A stretch of 47,226 nt of DNA, taken from Deltaproteobacteria bacterium (GTDB taxonomy: Bacteria; Desulfobacterota; Dissulfuribacteria; Dissulfuribacterales; QOAL01). The position numbers and the translations under genes were made by a program. The DNA is taken from positions 1 through 47,226 of the forward strand of contig WGBG01000088.1 in the NCBI GenBank assembly GCA_015494395.1. The letters run 5' to 3'. Shown here in pieces: positions 2,950-47,226 of this stretch. The first letter of the stretch is position 1. Every line of letters starts with the position of its first letter. The notes below the pieces were generated by a model. It did not search any database, was not told where the DNA came from, and worked only from the letters and a program-made list of their open reading frames with translations.

Positions 2950-5106
2950 CTGCCTGGGCGGACCAAGCAAGGTTCGAATTTTGGGGAGGATGTCGTTGAT
3001 TTTAAAAGGCTTATGTATTATGTCTGCAATGCCTGCTTCCTTTACCTTGCTGAGGTGCTCCTCACCGGCATAGCCAGTGGCAATAAGTACTTTGATATGC
3101 GGACTTAGTTTTTTCAGCTCAATAAGGCAATTATATCCACCCATGCCGGGCATGTTGATGTCAAGTATTACAAGGCCTATCTCATCCCCATGTTTTTTAA
3201 AGATTTCCAGGGCCTCCTCTCCGCTTCTGGCTGTAATGACCCCGTAATGATGCATGAGAATCATTTCTTTTTCAATTTCGAGAATGCCGGGTTCATCATC
3301 CACTATGAGTATCAGCCCGTTTTCTCCATGCCCGATGGCTCGCTCTTTTGCCTCATACTCTTCTGGTGCCTCTTTTTCCGGCTTTTCCTGGTAAACAGGC
3401 AGGAAAATGGAAAAGGAGGTGCCATGACCTGGCGTGCTGGAGCAGTAAATAACCCCACCATGTTTTTTTACAATGCCGTAAACCATGGCTAGGCCCAGTC
3501 CAGTGCCCTTTCCTTCCTCTTTTGTGCTGAAGAAAGGCTCAAAGATTCGGCGAAGAGTCTTTTCATCCATGCCTGTCCCGGTGTCGGAGACTTTAAGCAG
3601 TACATAATCCCCTCTATTTAGTCCTGCGTGTTTTCTTGCCATGGATTTATCAACATGAATATTTTCCGTACTGATGTCCAGTCTGCCGCCATCAGGCATG
3701 GCATCCCTTGCATTTACAGCAAGGTTCATAATGACCTGCTCAAATTGTATGGGCTCTGCCTCTATACGTTTGAGATCTCCCTGAAGGTGAAGGTTAATGG
3801 ATATCATGCGGGGTATGGTGCGCTCAAGAAGACGGCAGACAGTGACAATGTGCTCATTTACATCAATGGGCACAGGATTAAAATCCGTTTTCCTGCTGTA
3901 CATTAAAAGCTGTCGGGTAATATGGGATGCACGGTCAACGGCCTTTTTAATGTTCTTTACAAGCCGTTGTCCTTCATCGTTGCAGAGTTGCCGGATTTCA
4001 AGGAGCTGGATATAGCCGGTTATAATTTGTAGTACGTTGTTGAAGTCATGGGCTATGCCACCTGCAAGCGTACCAATAGCCTCCATCTTCTGTGCCTGTA
4101 AAAGTTCAGCTTCAAGTCTCTGTCTCTCTGTAATGTCCCGGACGAAGTGGAGCAATGCCTTTCTGCCTCTCAATTCCACAGGGACAATGGTGAGCATTAC
4201 CACGCGGATATCTTTGTCTGCAGGGCTTATCTTAATTGCATCAAGCGTTATGGTCTTGTTCCAGCCGGCTACCTCAAGGTATGCATCAAGTACCTGCTCC
4301 CTGTGTTCCGGGACTACGAAGTCAATAAAGTTGAAGCAACCCAGTTCCCGCCTGTCATGTCCTAAAAGGTTGGCAGTACTGGGATTGGGAAAGGTGATGA
4401 CATCATCTTCCAGGACAAATATTGCCTCTTCTGCATTGTTTACCAGTGTGGCATAGTTGGCTTCTGATTCTGCCACCCTGCTCTCCAGAAGATCGGTGTA
4501 CTGGTGGAGCTTGGCACTTGTCCTGTCAAGTTCCCGCCTGTAGTTGTACTCTCTCAACCTGGTCTTGAAGTTGGAATGTACTGCAATGAGCAGAACAAGG
4601 GTGGTGGTCACCATGAATACGTTGTTTATCACGCAGAGCTTGTAGTTGTTACAGTTGCCGGCAAGGAATACAGCGGCTACAAAGAGCAGGTAAAGGGCTC
4701 CAACATGAAATGCAATGCGCCATGTATCAAGTGGAATTACAGTACAGATGCCCACAAATACAAGAAGTAGTCCTGCGTAGTACTGGCTTATTGCCCCTTC
4801 GGTTGCAACTATCATCCATATAATGCTTGTGCCTGTGAGGTAGTACCCGATAATGCCAGCCCAAGATATGAATCGGGCATCTGGCCTGCTCCTGTCAATT
4901 ATCAGGATAATGACGCAGTAAAGGGTGATAAAGGAGCGGATTAAGAGGAAATCTTTCCAGTGCTGAGGATAGTAGAAGTAATCCACCAGGGAAAAGAGCG
5001 GGACAAGCACAGCGCCAAGTCCTGCAAACAGCCTGAAGCGCTGGCGTATGAGGTTCTGCTGGGATTCCCAGAACTTTTCCATGTTGGTAAAACTGGTCAT
5101 CTCCAA
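2929..5106 (-). CDS. Membrane-bound PAS sensor histidine kinase with C-terminal receiver domain
   Basis: Multi-TM N-terminus, PAS, H-box (GGIAHDFNNVLQIITGY), N-box NLAVNARDAM, G-box GTGLGLAMV, REC (VILDINMPGMGG...HKPF). Confidence 0.9.
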   Translation of the reverse strand: MEMTSFTNMEKFWESQQNLIRQRFRLFAGLGAVLVPLFSLVDYFYYPQHWKDFLLIRSFITLYCVIILIIDRSRPDARFISWAGIIGYYLTGTSIIWMIVATEGAISQYYAGLLLVFVGICTVIPLDTWRIAFHVGALYLLFVAAVFLAGNCNNYKLCVINNVFMVTTTLVLLIAVHSNFKTRLREYNYRRELDRTSAKLHQYTDLLESRVAESEANYATLVNNAEEAIFVLEDDVITFPNPSTANLLGHDRRELGCFNFIDFVVPEHREQVLDAYLEVAGWNKTITLDAIKISPADKDIRVVMLTIVPVELRGRKALLHFVRDITERQRLEAELLQAQKMEAIGTLAGGIAHDFNNVLQIITGYIQLLEIRQLCNDEGQRLVKNIKKAVDRASHITRQLLMYSRKTDFNPVPIDVNEHIVTVCRLLERTIPRMISINLHLQGDLKRIEAEPIQFEQVIMNLAVNARDAMPDGGRLDISTENIHVDKSMARKHAGLNRGDYVLLKVSDTGTGMDEKTLRRIFEPFFSTKEEGKGTGLGLAMVYGIVKKHGGVIYCSSTPGHGTSFSIFLPVYQEKPEKEAPEEYEAKERAIGHGENGLILIVDDEPGILEIEKEMILMHHYGVITARSGEEALEIFKKHGDEIGLVILDINMPGMGGYNCLIELKKLSPHIKVLIATGYAGEEHLSKVKEAGIADIIHKPFKINDILPKIRTLLGPPRQEIYSAK

Positions 5107-9913: not shown

Positions 9914-12900
9914 ATGAAAAAGGCCAGAGTATTAACAGCATTTTTTACAATTATAGCTCTGTTGGCTATTTTATGCCCTGTGGCAGGTGCTTGGACCTAT
10001 AGCATCCGTCAGGTGGAGTACGTGGGCAGTTCTGATATTATCGGGACAAAGAATGGCAAGACGTATTCCTTCCGCGTAGGGGTAATAACCAATGACAGTG
10101 CCCAAGCCATGCCGCTGGAACTCAGGTTTAACTATCTTGAAAATTTCATAGGCCAGTTCTGGTACAGCATTGATGACGGGGCAAGCTGGATTGAGGTTCC
10201 AAAGGGGGCGCCATCTGCCACAGTGCCTGACGTTGCCCCAGGCGCTTCAGTGCAGGTTCGTGCAGTAATCAACTACTATCGCTATCTCTCCACGTCCCCA
10301 TGGGGAGATGCTGACCAGAGCATTGGAGATGACTACTACTTTGCCTTTGCCCCGGGTGGCAGGTACTACCAGCCCGGGACCACCAATGTTGATAAAACAG
10401 GTTTTGTTATTGTAACAAATGTGCCGTCTTCCGGTGCCTGGACCTATAGCATCCGTCAGGTCGAATACGTGGGCAGTTTTGATATTATCGGGACAAAGAA
10501 TGGCAAGACGTATTCTTTCAGGGTAGGGGTGATAACCAATGCCAGCTCTGATGCCATGCCGCTGGAGCTCAGGTTTAACTATCTTGAAAATTTCATAGGC
10601 CAGTTCTGGTACAGCATTGATGACGGGGCAAGCTGGATTGAGGTTCCAAAGGGGGCGCTATCTGCTACAGTGCCTGATGTTGCCCCAGGCGCTTCAGTGC
10701 AGGTTCGTGCAGTAATCAACTACTATCGCTATCTCTCTACGTCCCCCTGGGGAGAGGCTGACCAGAGCATTGGAGATGACTACTACTTTGCCTTTGCCCC
10801 GGGTGGCAGGTACTACGAACCCGGGACCACCAATGTTGATAAAACAGGTTTTGTCATCGTGGTGGCCTATTCAGAGCCCCCAGAGGATCTAGACAACGAT
10901 GGCCAGACCGTGAGCCAGGGCGACTGCAATGACAATGATCCCTCCATCTATACAGGAGCACCTGAAATATGCGGAGATGGTATTGACCAGGATTGTGACG
11001 GTGCGGACCTGGCCTGCCTGGTACAGACTGTGACATCGGCAGGAGGGCTTGTATGGATGGACAGAAATCTTGGCGCTTTCCGTGCTGCTTCAAGCATGAC
11101 AGATGAGTGGGCCTTTGGTGATTATTACCAGTGGGGCAGGGGCGCTGACGGGCATGAGAAGAAAGACAGCAACGTAACCTCTTTACTCAGCACTGATGAT
11201 AATCCGGGGCACGGTGATTTTATCACCACCGATACAGCTCCATACGACTGGAGAGCTCCACAGAATGATAACCTGTGGCAGGGTGAGGCAGGAATAAACA
11301 ACCCATGCCCTCCCGGCTTCAGGCTGCCAACTGCTACGGAATTCAGCATTGAAAGGGCATCATGGTCTTCCAGCAACCCTGATGCCTATCCCTTTGAGCT
11401 TGCTTTTGCCTCGCCGCTTAAACTTGTGGGCGCTGGCGCACGCTTTACCAACGGAAGTTTACATCCCGGAAATCACTGGGGGAATTACTGGACCAGCACG
11501 GTGGCTGGCACAGAGGCGCGAATTTTTGAGTTTGATGCGGCATGGGCAGGCATTCGCTCCGAGTACCGTTCCCAGGGAAGCAGTGTGCGCTGTATCCAGG
11601 ATTATTCTGACCAGGACATGGATGGCGATGGTCAGAGTGCAAATGATGGAGACTGTAATGACCTGGACAACACCATTTATGCAGGTGCGCCTGAGATATG
11701 CGAAGATGGCATTGACCAGGACTGTGATGGTGAAGATGCCGTGTGTCCTGACGCAGATGGAGACGGACAGACTGCTGCCCAGGGTGACTGCAATGATGAA
11801 GACAGCACCATTTACAGGGGTGCGCCGGAGATATGCGGGGACAGCATTGACCAGGACTGTGATGGATGGGACAGACCCTGCGGACTGCCGGAAGGTGCGG
11901 TTCTATCAGCAGGTCAGATATGGCTTGACCGCAATCTTGGGGCATCTCGCGTGGCTCTAAGCGCAAATGATACCGAGGCATACGGCGACCTTTACCAGTG
12001 GGGGAGGCTTGCCGATGGACACGAGAAGCGTACCAGTGCAATCACTAATGACCGGAGCAGGAACGATGTGCCAGGCCATGGTGATTTCATCGCCACAAGC
12101 ATTTCTCCGTTTGACTGGAGATATGCTCAGAATAATGATTTGTGGCAGGGTGTGGACGGCATCAACAATCCCTGTCCGTCCGGTTACAGACTGCCCACGG
12201 CTACAGAGCTTGAAATAGAGAGGCTTTCCTGGAAGACAAGGAATGCAGCCGGTGCCTTCAACTCTCCTGCCAGATTTGTCAAGGCAGGTTACCGTGATCC
12301 GCGTACCGGGGAAATAATGGACACGGGAAACGTGATGAAGTACTGGTCAAGCACCGTTGCCGGTACTCATGCAGAATACCTGTATGCCAGTGAGAATAAC
12401 TCCGGGATCTACCATTACGGAAGGGCGGAGGGCAACAGCGTCCGCTGTATCATGGACAATAATCCTGACCTGGATATTGACCAGGACGGCCAGACCGCAA
12501 ATGATGGTGACTGTGATGATCTTGATGTCAATATTTATGCAGGTGCGCCTGAGGTTTGTGAAGACGGCATAGACCAGGACTGCGACGGACTTGATGCCCC
12601 GTGCACAGATAATGATGGAGATGGACAGGCAGTGAGCCAGGGTGACTGTAATGACTCTGATAATTCCATTTATACCGGGGCCCCGGAGATATGCGGAGAT
12701 GGGATCGACCAGGATTGTGATGGTGAGGATGAACCTTGCCCTGTAACCGTTACATCAGCAGGCCAGGTCTGGATGGATCGGAATCTTGGTGCATCACGGC
12801 AAGCCACAAGTTATGATGATCCTCAGGCCTTTGGTGATCTGTACCAGTGGGGCCGTCTTAAGGACGGTCATGAGAAGCGGACAAGCGAAACCACCGCAAA

Positions 12901-13324
12901 CCGAAGCAATCTGGATGTGCCAGGGCACGGCGATTTCATTACCGTTTCCTCCCCGTATTCCAATTGGCGGGAACCTGAGAACGACAACCTGTGGCAGGGT
13001 GAATCCGGTATCAACAATCCCTGTCCATCAGGTTTCAGGCTGCCTACTGCAACCGAGCTTCAAGTGGAAAGGGCATCCTGGCAGCCTCAAAATTCCGCTG
13101 GTGCCTATGCCTCTCCAGCCAAGTTCGTTGTTGGTGGTTACAGGGATGCTGAAACAGGTGATGTAGAGGTGGCAGGCAGGGAAGGGTATTACTGGTCAAG
13201 CACCGTTACCGAGCGTCGTTTTGGTAAAAGGGCTGATTATCTGGTGATAAGGCCTGGCAACACCGAAATGTCTTACGTGAATAACCAGGCTACAGGCCAG
13301 AGTGTGCGTTGTATTCAGGATTAA
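9914..13324 (+). CDS. Large secreted repetitive protein: two 149-aa tandem repeats, then alternating MopE-type metal-binding motifs and FISUMP-like domains
   Basis: Signal peptide; repeated DGDGQ..(N/Q)(D/G)DCND.D..IY.GAPEICGDGIDQDCDG; three GxxWMDRNLGA(S/F)R...YQWGR..DGHEK...NNPCPxGFRLPTATE...SVRCIQD units. RBS AAGGAGGAG. Confidence 0.85.
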   Translation: MKKARVLTAFFTIIALLAILCPVAGAWTYSIRQVEYVGSSDIIGTKNGKTYSFRVGVITNDSAQAMPLELRFNYLENFIGQFWYSIDDGASWIEVPKGAPSATVPDVAPGASVQVRAVINYYRYLSTSPWGDADQSIGDDYYFAFAPGGRYYQPGTTNVDKTGFVIVTNVPSSGAWTYSIRQVEYVGSFDIIGTKNGKTYSFRVGVITNASSDAMPLELRFNYLENFIGQFWYSIDDGASWIEVPKGALSATVPDVAPGASVQVRAVINYYRYLSTSPWGEADQSIGDDYYFAFAPGGRYYEPGTTNVDKTGFVIVVAYSEPPEDLDNDGQTVSQGDCNDNDPSIYTGAPEICGDGIDQDCDGADLACLVQTVTSAGGLVWMDRNLGAFRAASSMTDEWAFGDYYQWGRGADGHEKKDSNVTSLLSTDDNPGHGDFITTDTAPYDWRAPQNDNLWQGEAGINNPCPPGFRLPTATEFSIERASWSSSNPDAYPFELAFASPLKLVGAGARFTNGSLHPGNHWGNYWTSTVAGTEARIFEFDAAWAGIRSEYRSQGSSVRCIQDYSDQDMDGDGQSANDGDCNDLDNTIYAGAPEICEDGIDQDCDGEDAVCPDADGDGQTAAQGDCNDEDSTIYRGAPEICGDSIDQDCDGWDRPCGLPEGAVLSAGQIWLDRNLGASRVALSANDTEAYGDLYQWGRLADGHEKRTSAITNDRSRNDVPGHGDFIATSISPFDWRYAQNNDLWQGVDGINNPCPSGYRLPTATELEIERLSWKTRNAAGAFNSPARFVKAGYRDPRTGEIMDTGNVMKYWSSTVAGTHAEYLYASENNSGIYHYGRAEGNSVRCIMDNNPDLDIDQDGQTANDGDCDDLDVNIYAGAPEVCEDGIDQDCDGLDAPCTDNDGDGQAVSQGDCNDSDNSIYTGAPEICGDGIDQDCDGEDEPCPVTVTSAGQVWMDRNLGASRQATSYDDPQAFGDLYQWGRLKDGHEKRTSETTANRSNLDVPGHGDFITVSSPYSNWREPENDNLWQGESGINNPCPSGFRLPTATELQVERASWQPQNSAGAYASPAKFVVGGYRDAETGDVEVAGREGYYWSSTVTERRFGKRADYLVIRPGNTEMSYVNNQATGQSVRCIQD
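9992..10862 (+). repeat. Two-copy tandem coding repeat, 447-bp period
   Basis: TGGACCTATAGCATCCGTCAGGT... at 9992 and 10439 with near-identical downstream sequence. Confidence 0.9.
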
Positions 13325-13428: not shown

Positions 13429-13655
13429 GTAACTGTTCAGCGTATTGATGGTAATTGAGGTTAGTGAATGGCCTTGTTTTTCCGTTCCGGTGAACAATTT
13501 CTTGTTTTTCTAAGGCTTGCTACGCCAAAATCGCGAAACTCGCTCGTACCTCGCTCAGACAGACGCGATTTTTATGGCTGCGCTTCGCCAAGAAAAACTA
13601 CGAAATTCTTCATAGTCACTCCAAAACAAGACCATTCACTACGCTGAATAGATAC
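13429..13655 (-). mobile_element. Family I MITE-like element (copy B), 8-bp target duplication TAATTTGT
   Basis: TIRs GTAACTGTTCAGCGT and ACGCTGAATAGATAC; identical TAATTTGT at 13421-13428 and 13656-13663. Confidence 0.9.
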
Positions 13656-13678
13656 TAATTTGTATAAATAATAATGAT

Positions 13679-21205: not shown

Positions 21206-21302
21206 TGAGTTGGTGTTTCAAAAGTCTAATAAAATGATTTTGTACAAAATTAAAAGGAGTTACATCTATTTATACTTTTCAAGTTTTGAAACACTCAATT
21301 CG
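21206..21302 (-). repeat. Decayed, partial relic of the family II element (inner inverted repeat only)
   Basis: GTGTTTCAAAAGTC...AAAATTAAAAGGAGTTA...TTTTGAAACACTCAATTCGGG aligns with the reverse complement of the right half of 44118-44325. Confidence 0.55.
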
Positions 21303-21358
21303 GGGTAGAACTGTTTCATTATAATTCTCTCCTTGGATGTTGCCCTGTTACAGAATGA

Positions 21359-28040: not shown

Positions 28041-30187
28041 ACAGGGCGCAGGGCACGGGCGGACGGGAGCGGACAATACTCCTGGTGGATGATGAACCTC
28101 TGAATATCAGGGTGATGAGCCAGATTCTCAGGGACAGTTACCGCATAATGGTGGCAACAGGGGGGAATGAGGCTTTGAAGTGTGCATCCTCCCCTCACCC
28201 TCCGGACCTGATTCTGCTTGATTTTGTAATGCCTGACCTGGATGGCCTTGCCGTGTGCCGAGAACTGAAAGGTGCAGAGCAGACCAAAAAAATTCCTGTA
28301 ATCATGGTTACAGGCAAGGCATCGGACCAGGATATTGCCCAGATACTTGAAGCAGGGGTCGAGGATTGCATTACCAAGCCTGTACACCCGGAGCTTTTGA
28401 AGAAAAAAGTGGAAAATGCCCTTGAGCTTGCCCGGTGCAGAAAACGTTCTGTAACAGGCAATGAAGTGCTTGCTGCAGCGCTTGAGCAGGAGAAGGAGAC
28501 AAATGCCGCACTTTCTGCAACCATCCGCCGCATGGAAAGGGAGCTTGATTCCTCACGGCAGTACAGGCACATGTTTCTTGCAGAGATGCATCATGAGATA
28601 AAGACCCATCTCACCACAATTACAGGCATGACAGGCCTTGCCCTGCGTAAGGACCTCTCTGAAGAGCTCCTTGATTACATAATCACCATTGAGAAGGCAA
28701 CCACCACCCTGGTAGAGCTCATAAATGATATTGTTGACCTTTCAATGCTTGAAGAAAACGAGCTGGAGCCCGAATACAGGGAGTTCTCCCCTGCCCTTCT
28801 TATAAACGAGGTATGTGATGCGTGCGGGGAGCTGGCATTCAAGAAGAAGGCGGAGCTTGTGCTCGATACCTCACCGGAGCTTCCTGCAATTCTGAAGGGT
28901 TCTCCCACGCGCATACGGCAGCTTGTAACACATCTGGTTCACTACAATATAAAGTGGCTGAACGGAAGAGAGATACTCCTTAAAGCCGGAGGGCGCATGT
29001 CCGGAAATGACGAGTATCTGCTGGAGATATCCATCTCCTGTCTTGATAACAGCCTTACAGACAGTGAGGCAAAGGGGCTTCTTGAGTATGTTGACCCCCT
29101 TGAGCGATCAAGAGGTGCCACGTCAGCTGGCTCCGGCCTGGGGCTTCCAATCTGCAGGCGTATAGTTGAGAGGATGTCAGGTCACATGGATGTTAATGCC
29201 ACAACATACGGAGGCGTTACATTCAGCTGTGTAATTCCCTTTGCCTGTGTAGAGAGGCAGCCTCGTCCCCTGAACATCAGCCCAAGGATCACCCAGGGTT
29301 TAAGGGTGCTGGTTCTTGATGACAGCAGGCTTGCAGCAGGAGTTGTTGCCGGAATGCTTGAACGCCTTGGGTGCAGGGTTGAAACCTGTAATGAATGGGG
29401 TGATGTCCTTGGCCGTATGGACAGCGCCGGTTCTGATAAAACAGAAGATTGTAACTGGGATATCATGCTTATTGACTGGAGCATGCCTGGAATTGACGGC
29501 CTGGAGTTGACACGACGCATAAGGGAAGCCGGTTGTTCTGTGCCAGTGATTATAATGGGAATGCCTGCCCTGTTGATGATGAGAATGGTGCATCAGCGAA
29601 AATTTAATGCAGAGGGAGGGGCAGAAGACAGCACAGGGGGAGAGATAAATACTGGTTTTATTATGAAGCCTCTAAAGACAGAGCCGCTTCTTGAAAAGAT
29701 ACACAAGATGATAAGCGAGGATTCAGGGGAAACCCCGAGGCACGGTTCTGAGGCAGATGATAGCCCCCCTGATGATCTGCATGGCCTGCGAATACTTCTG
29801 GTTGAGGATAATGCCATTAACAGGCAGATAGCAAGACAGCTCCTTGAGATGGCAGATATGGATGTCACCGGGGTATCCACGGGAAACAGTGCTGTTGAGG
29901 CAGCGTCTTCATCCCGATTTGATGTAGTTCTGATGGATATTGAGCTTCCGGATATGAACGGTATGGAGGCAACAGAGCTTATCAGAAAAAACACCTTGAA
30001 TGCCAATACACCGGTTATCGCTCTTACAGCACATTCCTGGGCAAGTCACAGGAGGGCTTACCGCAAGGCAGGAATCGCCTGGTGCATAGAAAAACCCATT
30101 GATCTTGATGAACTTTATGAAACCATCAGGAGGGTGGTTTCAGTAGAAGAGGGGGCGCTGCCAAATGAAAAGAGACAGGAAATTTGA
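28037..30187 (+). CDS. Hybrid kinase-like protein REC-HisKA-(degenerate HATPase)-REC-REC
   Basis: REC1 [12 protein letters not shown]-box [17 protein letters not shown]-box replaced ([10 protein letters not shown]), G-box [11 protein letters not shown]3 [12 protein letters not shown]. Overlaps the upstream kinase stop by 4 bp. Confidence 0.85.
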
Positions 30188-30830
30188 TTCTGTCATTTTT
30201 GACCTTGACGGAACACTTCTTGATACCCTGAAGGATCTGGGAGATGCTATGAACAGGGTGCTCAAGGCACACGGGTGGCCGGAACACCCTGAATCTGCCT
30301 ACAAGAAGTTTGTTGGAAACGGGGCAACCAGGCTCATTGAAAGGGCTGTGCCCGGCGATGTCCGCACCCCGGCGGTCATAAAGGAATGTCTCAGGGAATT
30401 TCTGGATGATTACAGTCAGAACTGGGCAGTAAACACAAGGCCCTATCCAGGGATACCGGAGCTTTTGGAGGGGCTTCAGAGGCATCAGATTATAATGTCT
30501 GTGCTTTCAAACAAGATACATGATTTTACCTTGATGTGTGTAAACAGGTTTCTGCCCTCTTTTACCTTTGCACAGGTCCTGGGCGAGCGGGAGGGTATCC
30601 CCAAAAAACCTGACCCGGCAGGTGCTCTTGAGATCGTTCAGGAAACAGGCATTCCTGCTGAAAAGACCCTGTATGTTGGAGATACAGCCATAGACATGCA
30701 GACAGCAAGGGCAGCGGGCATGTTTGCCGTCGGGGTTCTCTGGGGTTTCAGGGAGAGGGAGGAACTTGAGAAGAACGGCGCTGATGCTTTGGTTGAGCGG
30801 CCAGAGGAGATAATCAGGTTAGCCGTCTAA
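30165..30830 (+). CDS. gph: HAD-superfamily phosphoglycolate phosphatase-like
   Basis: [23 protein letters not shown]...KPDPAGALEIVQETGIPAEKTLYVGDTAIDMQTARAAGMFAVGVLWGFR. Confidence 0.88.
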   Translation: MKRDRKFDSVIFDLDGTLLDTLKDLGDAMNRVLKAHGWPEHPESAYKKFVGNGATRLIERAVPGDVRTPAVIKECLREFLDDYSQNWAVNTRPYPGIPELLEGLQRHQIIMSVLSNKIHDFTLMCVNRFLPSFTFAQVLGEREGIPKKPDPAGALEIVQETGIPAEKTLYVGDTAIDMQTARAAGMFAVGVLWGFREREELEKNGADALVERPEEIIRLAV

Positions 30831-30857
30831 AATTTCATGACATGAAAGTAAGCTCAA

Positions 30858-31065
30858 CCTAGATTGAGCGATTGTCGGATTTGCTGCAGATCCGCGAAAG
30901 AGGAATTTTCATAATAGTCAGCTATATGGAAATTCCTCTGACAAAGGAGATGCAGTGAATACGGCAATCCCGGAGGGTTTCAAAACTGGAAAACTATAAT
31001 TGGTGTAACCTCTTTAAATTTAGTCGAAAAAATAATTTTCCAGATTTTGAAACGCTCAATCTAGG
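30858..31065 (+). mobile_element. Family II MITE-like element, copy 1, 208 bp, target duplication CTCAA
   Basis: CCTAGATTGAGCG ... CGCTCAATCTAGG (13-bp perfect TIR); CTCAA at 30853-30857 and 31066-31070. Confidence 0.92.
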
Positions 31066-31154
31066 CTCAAAGCTCAAGGGCGAAGGTGAAAGCATACAAT
31101 CATTCTTCCTCTTACTTTGAGCCTTGAGCTTTCAGCTTTGAGCCATTTTGTAAT

Positions 31155-32537
31155 ATGCCCAAAAAGACAAAACACAAGACCGAATACCTCTGCAGCTCAT
31201 GCGGCCACGTCTCCCTGAGGTGGTTTGGAAAGTGTCCCTCCTGCGGCAAGTGGGACAGCCTTGAAGAACAGGTGCATGAAACACCGGCAGCCCACCGAAG
31301 CGCAATCCTTACCGGCCCGGACAACCCGGTCCAGCTCTCAACCGTTGATACAGAAAGTTCAGAATCCCGTATCCCCCTTGAGGTGGAGGAGCTTGACAGG
31401 GTGCTTGGAGGCGGGCTTGTGCCAGGCGGCCTGGTGCTTCTGGGCGGTGAGCCTGGAATCGGCAAGTCAACGCTTCTTCTCCAGATACTGATGCGTCTCT
31501 CACGCCGCGGGATGAAGGTCCTCTATGTAAGCGGCGAGGAGTCATTGTCCCAGATTCGTATGCGTGCAGAGCGTCTTGGCACATGCCCTGAGGGGCTCTG
31601 GAGCATGTGTGAGTGCAGTCTTGAAAAGATTCAGGCAACGGTTAAGGAGCTCAAGCCGGGTTTTCTTGCAGTTGATTCCATTCAGACAATGAGTGCACCA
31701 GGTATTTCTTCCGCCCCTGGCAGTGTGGTCCAGGTCCGTGAATCCACTGCCATTATAATGCAGGTTGTAAAGACCATGGCAATACCCACAGTGATTGTGG
31801 GTCATGTCACAAAGGATGGCGCCATTGCCGGTCCAAGGGTCCTGGAACACCTGGTTGATACAGTGCTCTACTTTGAGGGAGACAGGAGCCACAGCTTCAG
31901 GCTGCTTCGTACAGTAAAGAATCGCTATGGTCCCTCCTTTGAGATAGGGGTTTTTGAGATGACCGGCAAGGGATTGAGGCAGGTGACAAACCCCTCACGT
32001 CTCTTTATGGGTGATCACTCAAATCCGGTTGCAGGCGCAGTTACTGTCCCGTGTCTTGAGGGTACCAGGCCAATAATGGTTGAAATACAGGCGCTTGTTA
32101 CACCTTCAAATATGGCCATGCCCCGCCGAACCACTACCGGCATCGACTCAAACCGCCTTGCCATGCTTTCAGCAGTTGCCCAGCGTCAGTTGGGAATACA
32201 TCTTCAGGAGTACGATATATTTGTAAATGTGGCAGGCGGACTTAAGATTGCTGAGCCTGCTGCAGACCTTGGAATCATTGCCGCTGTGGTGTCAAGCGTG
32301 CAGGAGCAGCCTGTCCCTGAAACAATGGCAATGTTTGGAGAGATAAGTTTGACCGGTGAATTACGGGCTGTGGGCAGGAGCGAGTTACGGCTGCGGGAGG
32401 CATCACGCTTGGGCTTTTCTTCCTGTGTCCTGCCAAAGTCCGGGAGCTCTGCCCTGAACGTTCCAGAGGGCATGGAGCTTCACAGCTCTCCTGACATTGT
32501 GCATGCCATGCGCTGTGCTGGATTGCTGGGTGTGTAG
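31155..32537 (+). CDS. radA: DNA repair protein RadA
   Basis: N-terminal zinc finger YLCSSCGHVSLRWFGKCPSCGKWDSL, Walker A GGEPGIGKSTLLLQ, RadA motif and Lon-like C-terminus. Confidence 0.96.
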   Translation: MPKKTKHKTEYLCSSCGHVSLRWFGKCPSCGKWDSLEEQVHETPAAHRSAILTGPDNPVQLSTVDTESSESRIPLEVEELDRVLGGGLVPGGLVLLGGEPGIGKSTLLLQILMRLSRRGMKVLYVSGEESLSQIRMRAERLGTCPEGLWSMCECSLEKIQATVKELKPGFLAVDSIQTMSAPGISSAPGSVVQVRESTAIIMQVVKTMAIPTVIVGHVTKDGAIAGPRVLEHLVDTVLYFEGDRSHSFRLLRTVKNRYGPSFEIGVFEMTGKGLRQVTNPSRLFMGDHSNPVAGAVTVPCLEGTRPIMVEIQALVTPSNMAMPRRTTTGIDSNRLAMLSAVAQRQLGIHLQEYDIFVNVAGGLKIAEPAADLGIIAAVVSSVQEQPVPETMAMFGEISLTGELRAVGRSELRLREASRLGFSSCVLPKSGSSALNVPEGMELHSSPDIVHAMRCAGLLGV

Positions 32538-38694: not shown

Positions 38695-38725
38695 TTAATA
38701 GCTCAAGGCTGAAAGCAAATGAAGG

Positions 38726-38950
38726 GTATCTATTCAGCGTGGTAACTGGTCTTGCTTTGGAGTGACTTTGAACAATTTCGTAGTTTTTCTTGGCGAAGCG
38801 CAGCCATAAAAATCGCGTCTGTCTGAGCGAGGCACGAGCGAGTTTCGCGATTTTGGCGGAGCAAGCCTTAGAAAAACTAGAAATTGTTCTCCGGAACGGA
38901 AAAACAAGACCATTTACCAACCTCATTCAATAAATGCGCTGGACAGTTAC
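38726..38950 (+). mobile_element. Family I MITE-like element (copy C), 225 bp, target duplication AATGAAGG, between fliE and fliF
   Basis: Begins GTATCTATTCAGCGT, ends GCGCTGGACAGTTAC; AATGAAGG at 38718-38725 and 38951-38958. Confidence 0.92.
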
Positions 38951-39086
38951 AATGAAGGCATGATGGTTTGCCTTTATCTTTCAGCTTCCAGCTTTCAGCG
39001 ACTTTCGTGTCAGGGGGTGACAAATCTGATGTCATGAAAGTTTCAGTACCGGATAAGAGCGATTGCCGGATATCAGGAGAGGTGCT

Positions 39087-42740: not shown

Positions 42741-44078
42741 ATGGATCCCGGCATGGAAGAATTTGACAGCAGCATAGATTTTCTTCCCTATTTGAGCCAG
42801 GTGCCTGAGGTGCAGACCGTTCGTGCCTGCGGTATCGTCAACCAGGTAATCGGCATGGTGCTTGAAGGGCGCGGGCCTGGTGTTCCTGTGGGGGGGATCT
42901 GCCAGGTTGAGATGAAAAACGGCCCTGCCCTTACAGCCGAGGTGGTTGGGTTCAGGGAGAACCAGGTCCTGCTAATGCCCCTTGGGGATATGAGGGGGGT
43001 TGAGCCTGGGAACAAGATCTGGGTGACAGAGCAGAAGGCAACTGTTGCTGTGGGGCACGGGCTTCTTGGTAGAATCCTCGGGGGCACGGGAGAACCTATT
43101 GACAGAAAGGGGTTTGTTAATCCCGAGGACCATTATCCCCTGTATGCGGAGCCCCTTAACCCGATGGACAGGCCCCGGATCTCCCAGCCTGTGGACGTGG
43201 GAATCCGTGCCATCAATTCCTGCCTTACCCTTGGGAAGGGGCAGCGGATAGGTATCATGGCAGGCTCCGGCGTTGGCAAAAGCACGCTTCTTGGAATGAT
43301 AGCAAGGCATACACGGGCTGATGTCAATGTAATCGCCCTTATTGGTGAGCGTGGCAGGGAGCTTCGTGATTTTATTGAGCGGGACCTTGGCCCAGAGGGG
43401 CTTGCGCGATCCGTGGTGATAGTGGCAACATCTGATCAGCCTCCACTTATCCGCCTGCGGGGTGCGTATCTTGCCATGGCAGTAGCTGAGTTTTTTCGGG
43501 ACCAGGGCAAGGACGTAATACTTATGATGGATTCGGTTACCCGTTTTGCAATGGCCCACAGGGAAGTTGGGCTTGCGGTGGGTGAGCCGCCAACCTCAAG
43601 GGGTTACACCCCTTCTGTTTTTGGGGAGCTTCCAAGGCTCCTTGAGCGTGCCGGAAGCAAGTCCGGTGCAGGAAGCATCACGGGAATTTACACGGTGCTG
43701 GTGGAGGGCGATGACATGAACGAGCCAATTGCCGACTCCGTGCGGTCCATAGTTGATGGGCATATAGTGTTAAAGAGGGAACTGGCACACCGGGGGCATT
43801 ATCCGGCCATTGATATTTTGGCCAGCATAAGCAGGGTTATGCGGGATATTGTGGAGCCTGAGCAGATAGAGGCCTACCAGAAACTTATAAACGTGCTTTC
43901 AGCCTATCAGCGTGCTGAAGACCTGATAAATCTCGGGGCATACACCCACGGAACAAACCCTGAGATTGATTTTGCCATTGGTAAGATTGATGCTGTAAAA
44001 AAATTTCTCTGTCAGGCAGTGGATGAGGCGGCAGATTTTGAAAGCTCAAAAGAGCAGCTTATTAAACTGTTTGCCTGA
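42741..44078 (+). CDS. fliI: Flagellum-specific ATP synthase FliI
   Basis: Walker A GIMAGSGVGKSTLLGMIARHT; GYTPSVFGELPRLLERAG; EGDDMNEPIADSVRSIVDGHIVL. Confidence 0.96.
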   Translation: MDPGMEEFDSSIDFLPYLSQVPEVQTVRACGIVNQVIGMVLEGRGPGVPVGGICQVEMKNGPALTAEVVGFRENQVLLMPLGDMRGVEPGNKIWVTEQKATVAVGHGLLGRILGGTGEPIDRKGFVNPEDHYPLYAEPLNPMDRPRISQPVDVGIRAINSCLTLGKGQRIGIMAGSGVGKSTLLGMIARHTRADVNVIALIGERGRELRDFIERDLGPEGLARSVVIVATSDQPPLIRLRGAYLAMAVAEFFRDQGKDVILMMDSVTRFAMAHREVGLAVGEPPTSRGYTPSVFGELPRLLERAGSKSGAGSITGIYTVLVEGDDMNEPIADSVRSIVDGHIVLKRELAHRGHYPAIDILASISRVMRDIVEPEQIEAYQKLINVLSAYQRAEDLINLGAYTHGTNPEIDFAIGKIDAVKKFLCQAVDEAADFESSKEQLIKLFA

Positions 44079-44117
44079 CGCTTTTCACTCAATCTTGATG
44101 AATTGGTTTTGGTTGTA

Positions 44118-44325
44118 CCTAGATTGAGCGATTGTCGGATTTGCTGCAGATCCGCGAAAGAGGAATTCCCATAATAGTCGGCTATATGGGGATTCCTCTG
44201 ACAAAGGAGATGCAGTAAATACGGCAATCCCGAAGGGTTTCAAAATCTGGAAAGCTATAATCGACATAACTCCTTTTAATTTCATAAAAAAATAATTTTC
44301 CAGATTTTGAAACGCTCAATCTAGG
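44118..44325 (+). mobile_element. Family II MITE-like element, copy 2, 208 bp, target duplication TTGTA, between fliI and fliJ
   Basis: CCTAGATTGAGCG...CGCTCAATCTAGG; TTGTA at 44113-44117 and 44326-44330. Confidence 0.93.
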
Positions 44326-44355
44326 TTGTAGCCTTTTAAGGGAAAGATCACTTAA

Positions 44356-44799
44356 ATGCCATTCAGATTCCGGCTTGAGGCGCTGCTCTCCATGCGGGAG
44401 AGGCAGCAGGAAATGGCAGAAGCGCAGCTTTCCAGGGTGCTTGGGCGTCTGCAAGACTGCCGTGAGGCAATGGATATCCTCGAAAACAGGCTTTCAAAGG
44501 CAAGAAACCAGCTTGCAAGCGGCATTGAGAGCGGTATTACAGCAAGTGAATACTCTGCTCACAGCAACAATATATCAGCCCTTGAGGCGCGCCTTGAGGA
44601 GTTTCGCAAGGAGGAAACCCGTCTCAGGATGGAGGCCAACAGGGCGCGGCATAACCTCAAGGTGGCCCATCGGGAAAGGGAGCTTGTGGACAAGCTCAAG
44701 GCAAGGAAGTATGAGGAGTGGCTTTCCGAGGAGCAGCAAAGAGAGCAGAACGAGGCAGATGACCTCTCAACCATAAGGTATATTCGCCAGCACCAGTAG
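44356..44799 (+). CDS. fliJ: Flagellar export protein FliJ
   Basis: PFRFRLEALLSMRERQQEMAEAQLSRVLGRLQ; coiled coil; position after fliI. Confidence 0.88.
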   Translation: MPFRFRLEALLSMRERQQEMAEAQLSRVLGRLQDCREAMDILENRLSKARNQLASGIESGITASEYSAHSNNISALEARLEEFRKEETRLRMEANRARHNLKVAHRERELVDKLKARKYEEWLSEEQQREQNEADDLSTIRYIRQHQ

Positions 44800-45378: not shown

Positions 45379-45397
45379 GAGGTTTCATAAATTCCCA

Positions 45398-45622
45398 GTA
45401 TCTATTCAGTGTGGTAAATGGTCTTGTTTTGGAGTGACTTTGAAGAATTTCGTAGTTTTTCTTGGCGAAGCGCAGCCATAAAAATCGCGTCTGTCTGAGC
45501 GAGGTACGAGCGAGTTTCGCGATTTTGGCGTAGCAAGCCTTAGAAAAACAAGAAATTATTCACTGGAACGGAAAAACAAGACCATTTAAAACCTTATTAA
45601 GATGAATACGCTGAACAGTTAC
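45398..45622 (+). mobile_element. Family I MITE-like element (copy D), 225 bp, imperfect 8-bp flank repeat (AATTCCCA/AATCTCCA)
   Basis: GTATCTATTCAGTGT...ACGCTGAACAGTTAC; interior nearly identical to copies B and C; flanks match 6/8. Confidence 0.88.
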
Positions 45623-47009
45623 AATCTCCATAGAGTTGTTCCAGAGTCCAGAGTCTGATCCGGCTTTCATCAGGAATCTGTACATGGGAGCGAAGAAACA
45701 GAAGTCCATGTATTGTGTAATTTTCTGGGTTTGGAAATGCCGCCATTTTTGCCCTTAACTCCTGTATGAGTTTTGGAGTTGATACAACCTTTCCCCACTT
45801 GCATTCCCCAATATCCACTACACCATCCTGCCTGATACCAACCACATCAATCTGTACATTTTTGTCCCAGTACTCACCAATCTCATAAGAGCAGGTCAAT
45901 CCTTCCCGGAGATATATGCGGGCAAGGGCCTCTTTGCATAAATTTTCAAAACACTGGCCAAAGTATGAGTCAAGTTGAGGTCTGATCAGGTTTACAAAGG
46001 CATTTTTTTCATCCATCTGGTAAATTGCAGAGCCGTTTGGGTATATGAACCTGAACCAGAACCGTAGAAGCGGATCGTCCAGTTTGTAACGAACCTGCCT
46101 TTTGTTTACTTTTTTACCACTCAGAGGATAGTGGCGGGCGATGTATCCCAGCTCTATCAGGGTGTTCTGGTAATAAAAAAGCGATTTTTCCTCAATGCCT
46201 GTGACCTGTGCTATCTGGCGGTTGCTGACTGCACCGGATGCAAGGGCAGTCAGTATGCCAAAGTACTTTTTAAGCTCTTTAAGTTCCTCTCTGAGTAAAA
46301 ATTCCGGCTCCCGGGCAAGTGCTGAAAATTCGTTTAGAAAATTGGTTCTTATGTTGGTTTCCACTGACTGGGAAGGAGAGAAAAATCTGAGATAATAGGG
46401 AATGCCGCCACAGACAAAGTACACCTTTGCCTTGTCTGTAACCGACCATTCAGGGTGAAACTCAGCAGCTTAAAGGTAAGAAAACGGCTTAAGGAGAATC
46501 TGGCGGGATCGGCGTCCGAACAGGGGGCTTTTCTCACCCAGTATCCTTTTCTCCATGAAGCCGATATACGAGCCGCAAATTATCAGAAAGATCTTTCCCC
46601 TGCCTCCCCAACCCTGGTCAATCAGCGCCTGTAATAAGGACGGAAGTTCCGGACTCGCCTCCACTGTCCATTGAAACTCATCCATAACGATTATTAACGA
46701 CTCTTCGGCATTAAGCTGTGAGACAGTTACCGAGATTGCATCCTGCCAGTCATTGACAGAGGTTTTTTCCAGCAGCGGTTGATCAAGGGCAGATGCGGCA
46801 TTGCGCATAAACTCCCGTATTTGAAGACGGGCAGGCGCCTGTTTGCCAAGGAAGTAAACAGCCTTTTTATCCCTGATAAAGTGCTTGATCAGTTCACTCT
46901 TGCCGACCCTGCGTCGGCCGTATATGGGTATAAAGGTATGCTCTGGTCCCCGGTAAGCATCCTCAAGTAGTCGCAATTCCCTTTTTCTGCCTATAAATTT
47001 CGTGATCAT
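45597..47009 (-). pseudogene. AAA ATPase (archaeal-type ATPase/DUF234 family) interrupted by an in-frame TAA at 46470-46472
   Basis: Two ORFs in the same frame: IPIYGRRRVGKSELIKHF...LIIVMDEFQW...LLKPFSYL* then AAEFHPEWSVTDKAKVYFVCGGIPYYLRFF...; family-typical sequence runs through the stop. Confidence 0.8.
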
Positions 47010-47076: not shown

Positions 47077-47226
47077 CCTGGATTGAGCGATTGTCGGATT
47101 TGCTGTAGATCCGCGAAAGAGAAATTCCCATAATAGTCGGCTATATGGGAATTTCTCTGACAAAGGAGATGCAGTGAATCCGGCAATCCCGAAGGGTTTC
47201 AAAAGTTGAAGAGTATGATAGATATA
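47077..47226 (+). mobile_element. Family II MITE-like element, copy 3, cut by the window end
   Basis: CCTGGATTGAGCGATTGTCGGATTTGCTGTAGATCCGCGAAAGAG... same order as copies 1 and 2 up to GGGTTTCAAAAGTTGAAG. Confidence 0.9.

Follow-up and report, generated by a model that had tools for sequence, protein, structure and literature searches.

The 208-bp repeat described here raises two linked questions: which transposase moves an element that carries no gene, and what unites it with its relatives in other genomes. The window, by which we mean the whole stretch of DNA analysed (47,226 nucleotides, the entire contig C88), holds the element at 30858-31065 and at 44118-44325. A script check of the sequence bore out the first-pass annotation, which had described two 208-bp copies with perfect 13-bp ends and a 5-bp duplication private to each. 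Both start with CCTAGATTGAGCG and finish with CGCTCAATCTAGG, the termini form a 13/13 inverted match, and the direct repeats are CTCAA/CTCAA around copy 1 and TTGTA/TTGTA around copy 2. The copies are identical in 189 of 209 aligned columns and score 126 bits (copy 1) and 125.8 bits (copy 2) with the covariance model R1 introduced below. The third copy that had been placed at 47077 is also real; its left end carries one mismatch, and the contig end cuts it at 47226. At up to two mismatches the window contains 6 end sites against 1.2 expected. Its features are as follows, with the basis of each in brackets.

30858-31065, + strand: copy 1, 208 bp, lying between a HAD-hydrolase gene (30165-30830) and a radA-like gene (31155-32537) (sequence, Pfam, R1)
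30853-30857, no strand: left-hand target duplication of copy 1, CTCAA (sequence)
31066-31070, no strand: right-hand target duplication of copy 1, CTCAA (sequence)
30870-30969, + strand: conserved core of copy 1, its hairpin 1 (R1 and fold)
30977-31053, + strand: hairpin 2 of copy 1 (fold)
44118-44325, + strand: copy 2, 208 bp, lying between fliI (42741-44078) and fliJ (44356-44799) (sequence, Pfam, R1)
44113-44117, no strand: left-hand target duplication of copy 2, TTGTA (sequence)
44326-44330, no strand: right-hand target duplication of copy 2, TTGTA (sequence)
44118-44130, + strand: left terminal inverted repeat CCTAGATTGAGCG of copy 2 (sequence)
44313-44325, - strand: right terminal inverted repeat CCTAGATTGAGCG of copy 2 (sequence)
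44130-44229, + strand: hairpin 1 of copy 2, the conserved core with a tandem GA/GA internal loop (R1 and fold)
44230-44236, + strand: mini-hairpin of copy 2 at the junction, CCCGAAGGG region (fold)
44237-44313, + strand: hairpin 2 of copy 2, whose arms vary among families with complementarity kept (fold)
47077-47226, + strand: copy 3, truncated where the contig stops, with CCTGGATTGAGCG as its left end (sequence, R1)
21213-21306, - strand: degenerate right-half relic of the element (nhmmer, E=5e-9; also repeat I5/D8)

At 208 bp the element is too short for a transposase gene (its relatives span 197-258 bp) and shows no visible open frame. It is thus short and without a transposase of its own, and it has inverted ends, duplications that differ from site to site and many, mostly intergenic copies, the combination expected of a MITE. 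Our preferred reading, to which we give a probability of roughly 85%, is that it is a non-autonomous MITE whose helper is, or recently was, an IS1380-family DDE transposase acting in trans, and that it belongs to a family in the Desulfobacterota defined by its folded interior. In the mechanism that we envisage, the CCTAGATTGAGCG ends would be the binding sites of the IS1380 transposase, which would place the element at AT-rich intergenic TNNNA sites and duplicate 5 bp. The identity of the family would lie in the interior, comprising an end stem, hairpin 1 with its tandem GA/GA loop, the CCCGAAGGG mini-hairpin and hairpin 2, and not in the ends, which differ between lineages and resemble or match those of different IS1380 subgroups. 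By changing its ends, the core could then exchange its helper transposase for a new one.

The first-pass annotation had based its view of a mobile element on these few copies and proposed a genome-wide BLASTN count, expecting further copies with matching ends and duplications; the host genome (G000) supplies them in number. The end pattern at up to one mismatch occurs at 255 sites in 3.21 Mb, against 0 for a reversed control pattern, which by simple arithmetic corresponds to some 125 copies that make up roughly 0.8% of the genome. At least 40 copies were aligned by BLAST (scoring covered 40 of 277 candidates), median divergence from the consensus is 2.4% among 34 copies, and most of the own-genome copies listed have an identical 5-bp flanking pair. 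Deletion variants also occur, one of 139 bp that has lost most of hairpin 1 and one of 101 bp that consists of hairpin 2 alone and has its own TAAGA duplication, and variants of 473 and 441 bp are the element plus another repeat inserted into it. Contigs C17, C34, C96, C140 and C45, like the window itself at 47226, end inside copies of the element, which probably contributes to the fragmentation of the host assembly.

The history of individual insertions can be read at several loci. Exact 5-bp duplications flank 90 family members with verified ends; in 71 the first base of the duplication is T, and in 75 the fifth is A. Independently of the window, the flanks of one insertion (L021), once joined, align without gaps and at 96.7% identity to 120 bp of a separate repeat copy (L052), and this comparison confirms, directly and precisely, an empty site with a 5-bp duplication. 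In one sister genome (G003) fliI and fliJ are nearly adjacent and free of any insertion, and in another (G001) the element is absent from both window sites, the fliI-fliJ gap and the radA side; the core model found no match on the stretches of these two genomes that correspond to the window sites. The fliI-fliJ gap (window 44078-44356) is thus empty in G003, filled by a different repeat in G001 and occupied by the 208-bp element here, and is apparently an insertion site in the flagellar operon that has been used repeatedly.

Where genes were scored around insertions, no ORF of at least 90 aa spans the insertion (74 of 74). Pfam identifies the genes on either side as fliI and fliJ for copy 2 and as the HAD hydrolase and the radA-like gene for copy 1, and because these neighbours are all on the + strand, both window copies may be co-transcribed with them. 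The orientation of elements relative to neighbouring genes shows no bias, so no regulatory role is indicated, and a promoter and terminator scan of copy 2 (by consensus for an internal promoter) returned neither. A search of plasmid and phage collections with the 208-bp query gave no match at E 0.001.

What the element shares with its relatives is its interior, a conserved folded core common to elements with different ends, which is new relative to the first-pass annotation. The family came to light in a BLAST search that used a relative's core as query, followed by searches with R1, a covariance model of 132 positions and 33 pairs that was built from alignment A1 and covers the half comprising hairpin 1 and the mini-hairpin. 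In A1, RNAalifold places 33 pairs in hairpin 1 and the mini-hairpin, 24 of them with compensatory changes; 95.5% of cells at paired positions can pair, against 78.9% after shuffling and 30-41% for structures slid along the alignment, and double-changed cells number 194 against 61 in the control. Hairpin 1 contains a conserved GA/GA internal loop (A1 columns 33-34 and 96-97). The consensus for the whole element is a four-way arrangement of end stem, hairpin 1, mini-hairpin and hairpin 2, with 60 pairs of which 40 are compensated. Predicted folding energies of the window copies are -97.2 and -87.4 kcal/mol, with z scores of -12.6 and -11.4, a stability that by itself would be expected of any MITE, and the informative part is the compensatory changes. 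In Rfam, the window has no match at the gathering threshold; the best match below threshold, RF02901, was set aside, as it reaches 22 of 97 bits and covers only the 19-bp outer stem.

If the palindrome were a feature of double-stranded DNA, such as a cruciform or a binding site for the transposase or a host factor, rather than an RNA or single-strand structure, then the long and nearly palindromic hairpins, the intergenic and orientation-free placement of the elements and the lack of an internal promoter in the consensus scan of copy 2 would all be accommodated. The pairing is strand-specific, however: hairpin 1 is more stable on the + strand of the element in 48 of 56 non-redundant members (mean -41.4 versus -34.0 kcal/mol), and 30 of 31 whole elements are more stable on the same strand. 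Watson-Crick pairs have also changed to GU about twice as often as to AC (78 versus 38 events, counted by parsimony on a poorly resolved tree, and thus phylogenetically imperfect, from an alignment fitted to the structure), and internal loops such as the tandem GA/GA are conserved. We therefore regard a DNA-level role as possible but unlikely. The strand preference in the modelled folds suggests RNA or single-stranded DNA rather than a cruciform, a strand bias in pairing being equally expected of single-stranded DNA, and on that footing the core appears to have been selected as a structure of one of these two kinds.

Among the genomes of the phylum, R1 matches 51 of 396, in 43 of 247 genera, and both BLAST and R1 recover the same interior in elements with different ends. 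When a single genome of each species was scanned with a DNA pattern, 85 stretches were returned; the ones that the core HMM confirmed carry titles in the Desulfobacterota (for instance Desulfobacterales, Desulfobulbaceae and Desulfogranum marinum), and the remainder look fortuitous. At least five end types occur on the core, of which CCTARATTGAGC, CCTAAATCCTGC, CCC(A/G)GATTATGC and CCTGAATTTTGC go with 5-bp duplications and CCTAAACGTTGC with a 4-bp duplication. Mapped on the starred branches of the core tree, end type has changed at least 3 times for GAGC, at least 4 times for CCTGC and at least 3 times for TATGC, counts that are approximate because the tree rests on 98 columns and resolves few forks. 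These changes may reflect an exchange of ends by recombination or a convergent evolution of ends. In another group of loci (L158, L168, L185, L196, L198, L199, L216 and L224) the elements consist of the ends and hairpin 1 alone, about 115-125 bp in all, which suggests that some lineages can do without hairpin 2.

The first-pass annotation had recognised the ends as IS1380-type by comparison with the ISEcp1 terminus, and the comparison with transposons of this family upholds it. The ISEcp1 end CCTAGATTCTACGT is indeed printed in the literature (PMC7864471), as is a 5-bp ISEcp1 duplication, TATGA, which also fits TNNNA (PMC2887853). Ends that start with CC, in several cases with CCTARATT, and a 5-bp AT-rich target duplication are common to the element and the IS1380 family including ISEcp1, and one subgroup in the phylum has an identical end, CCTAAATTGAGCGATT. 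IS1380-family transposons with that end are found in other genomes at three loci, L093, L104 and L105, and share with the element a subterminal right end of the TTCAAAAC type. L104 is a 1740-bp element with an intact gene for a 485-aa transposase and the duplication TTTCA; L105 encodes a 464-aa protein, has the duplication TATAA and contains a nested transposase gene; L093 is a pseudogene that carries the duplication TGGTT and has a further IS inserted in its right end. All three proteins score above the NF033539 IS1380 cut-off and match PF13701. The same length of duplication, 5 bp, is seen in the IS1380 elements L104, L105, L093, L082 and L096. The IS in L093 occupies 3107-4094, with GGGCTTTTCCACTT ends and a ATCGCTCAA-like duplication.

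Other end types of the family have IS1380 counterparts as well, since similar or identical ends occur in IS1380 elements as CCTGAATTTTGCA (L096, L293), CCTGAATCTTGCAC (L100) and CCTGAATTATGCAC (L082). In one genome (G004) a degraded IS1380 relic without a duplication has the ends CCCGGATTATGCA and CCCAAATTATGCA, which are of the type of that genome's own MITEs.

These likenesses would also be expected if the element were what a plain internal deletion had left of a single IS1380 element; its palindromes would then be incidental and its conservation confined to the ends. The ends, the subterminal TTCAAAA-type bases and the 5-bp duplications fit an IS1380 subgroup, and bacterial MITEs are generally proposed to arise by such deletion (PMC10969869). 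A remnant of that kind is at odds with a core that is conserved in 43 genera, under different ends and with compensated pairs. The core was found neither in 51 IS1380 loci searched with nhmmer nor in 35 searched with the covariance model at E<=1, and simple deletion within those elements therefore does not account for the MITEs. An origin by plain deletion is already strongly disfavoured, and we consider it very improbable.

Under the preferred reading of an IS1380-mobilised MITE, the helper should lie, or should have lain, in the genomes that carry the element. The first-pass annotation had placed an IS1380-like transposase elsewhere in the host genome; the IS1380-type ends stand, whereas the transposase did not appear, a PF13701 search of the host draft having returned no IS1380 match. 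That assembly is fragmented and 92% complete, so the absence of the helper from it is no proof. Genomes of the same genus gave no IS1380 match longer than a 70-residue fragment. Nor was there a longer transposase-coding element with both ends, which the annotation had proposed to look for: 20 stretches around unpaired end sites hold no transposon that shares them, and the IS1380 elements that do lie in other genomes. A MITE and a full-length IS1380 element with the same ends were never found together in one genome among those examined, and GAGC-type IS1380 copies with intact genes occur in genomes that have no R1 match. The missing transposase lowers the probability that the element is being moved now, not that it is of IS1380 type. 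Its ends and duplications argue that an IS1380 transposase would be what moves it. A helper from another family duplicating 5 bp, for instance an IS1634-like or Tn3-like enzyme, would fit the lack of an IS1380 match in the host and the presence there of several PF01609 transposases. It is already a weak proposal and highly improbable, as the IS elements found with PF01609 in the host have ends that differ from those of the element, whereas IS1380 elements in the phylum share them.

The usual description of a MITE is that of a decayed copy of a single parent transposon, defined by the ends of that parent. Here the interior is stable and the ends are variable, and MITEs of this kind would be evolving parasites able to change helper. 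A tentative extension, to which we give somewhat less than an even chance, is that the core is a selfish structured RNA or single-stranded DNA with the MITE as its vehicle. It would have spread in the Desulfobacterota by repeated end exchange, switching IS1380 subgroup each time, with the core itself under selection. What is selected might be, for instance, protection or silencing of the insertion within transcripts of the host, or joint action with a host factor. The covariance model, the end types and the matching IS1380 subgroups define the family well enough for the function of the core to be tested.

Compared with known systems, the element differs from IS1380 transposons in being geneless and in a folded core that is missing from the IS1380 loci examined. 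It resembles bacterial MITEs such as Chunjie of Geobacter uraniireducens, which measures 178-235 bp and is inserted in an operon (PMC10969869), in being short, geneless, intergenic and multicopy, with inverted ends, direct repeats and a stable predicted transcript fold (PMC10969869); it differs, as far as a comparison by description goes, in having one core under several end types in many genera. With the structured RNAs of Rfam it has a conserved fold and compensatory changes in common, and it differs from them in the lack of a window match at the gathering threshold. The literature contained the end sequence as text only in an unrelated conifer paper; no paper combined IS1380, MITE and hairpin, and none paired Desulfobacter with the MITE phrase.

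A second repeat family, of about 200-230 bp and internally palindromic, occurs in the window at 2769-2951, 13456-13656, 38723-38953 and 45397-45625, and GTAACTGTTCAGCG ends one of its copies in another contig. Members of it are inserted within 208-bp elements (L050, L052), one is the target of a 208-bp element (L021), and this family fills the fliI-fliJ gap of sister genome G001. Adjoining copy 1, window 31066-31150 is an imperfect palindrome, CTCAAAGCTCAAGG...CCTTGAGCTTTCAGCTTTGAG, with similar stretches in G001, G002 and G012. Elsewhere in the window, long direct repeats with units of 300 and 110 nt occupy 9986-13081, within the open frame at 9914-13324.
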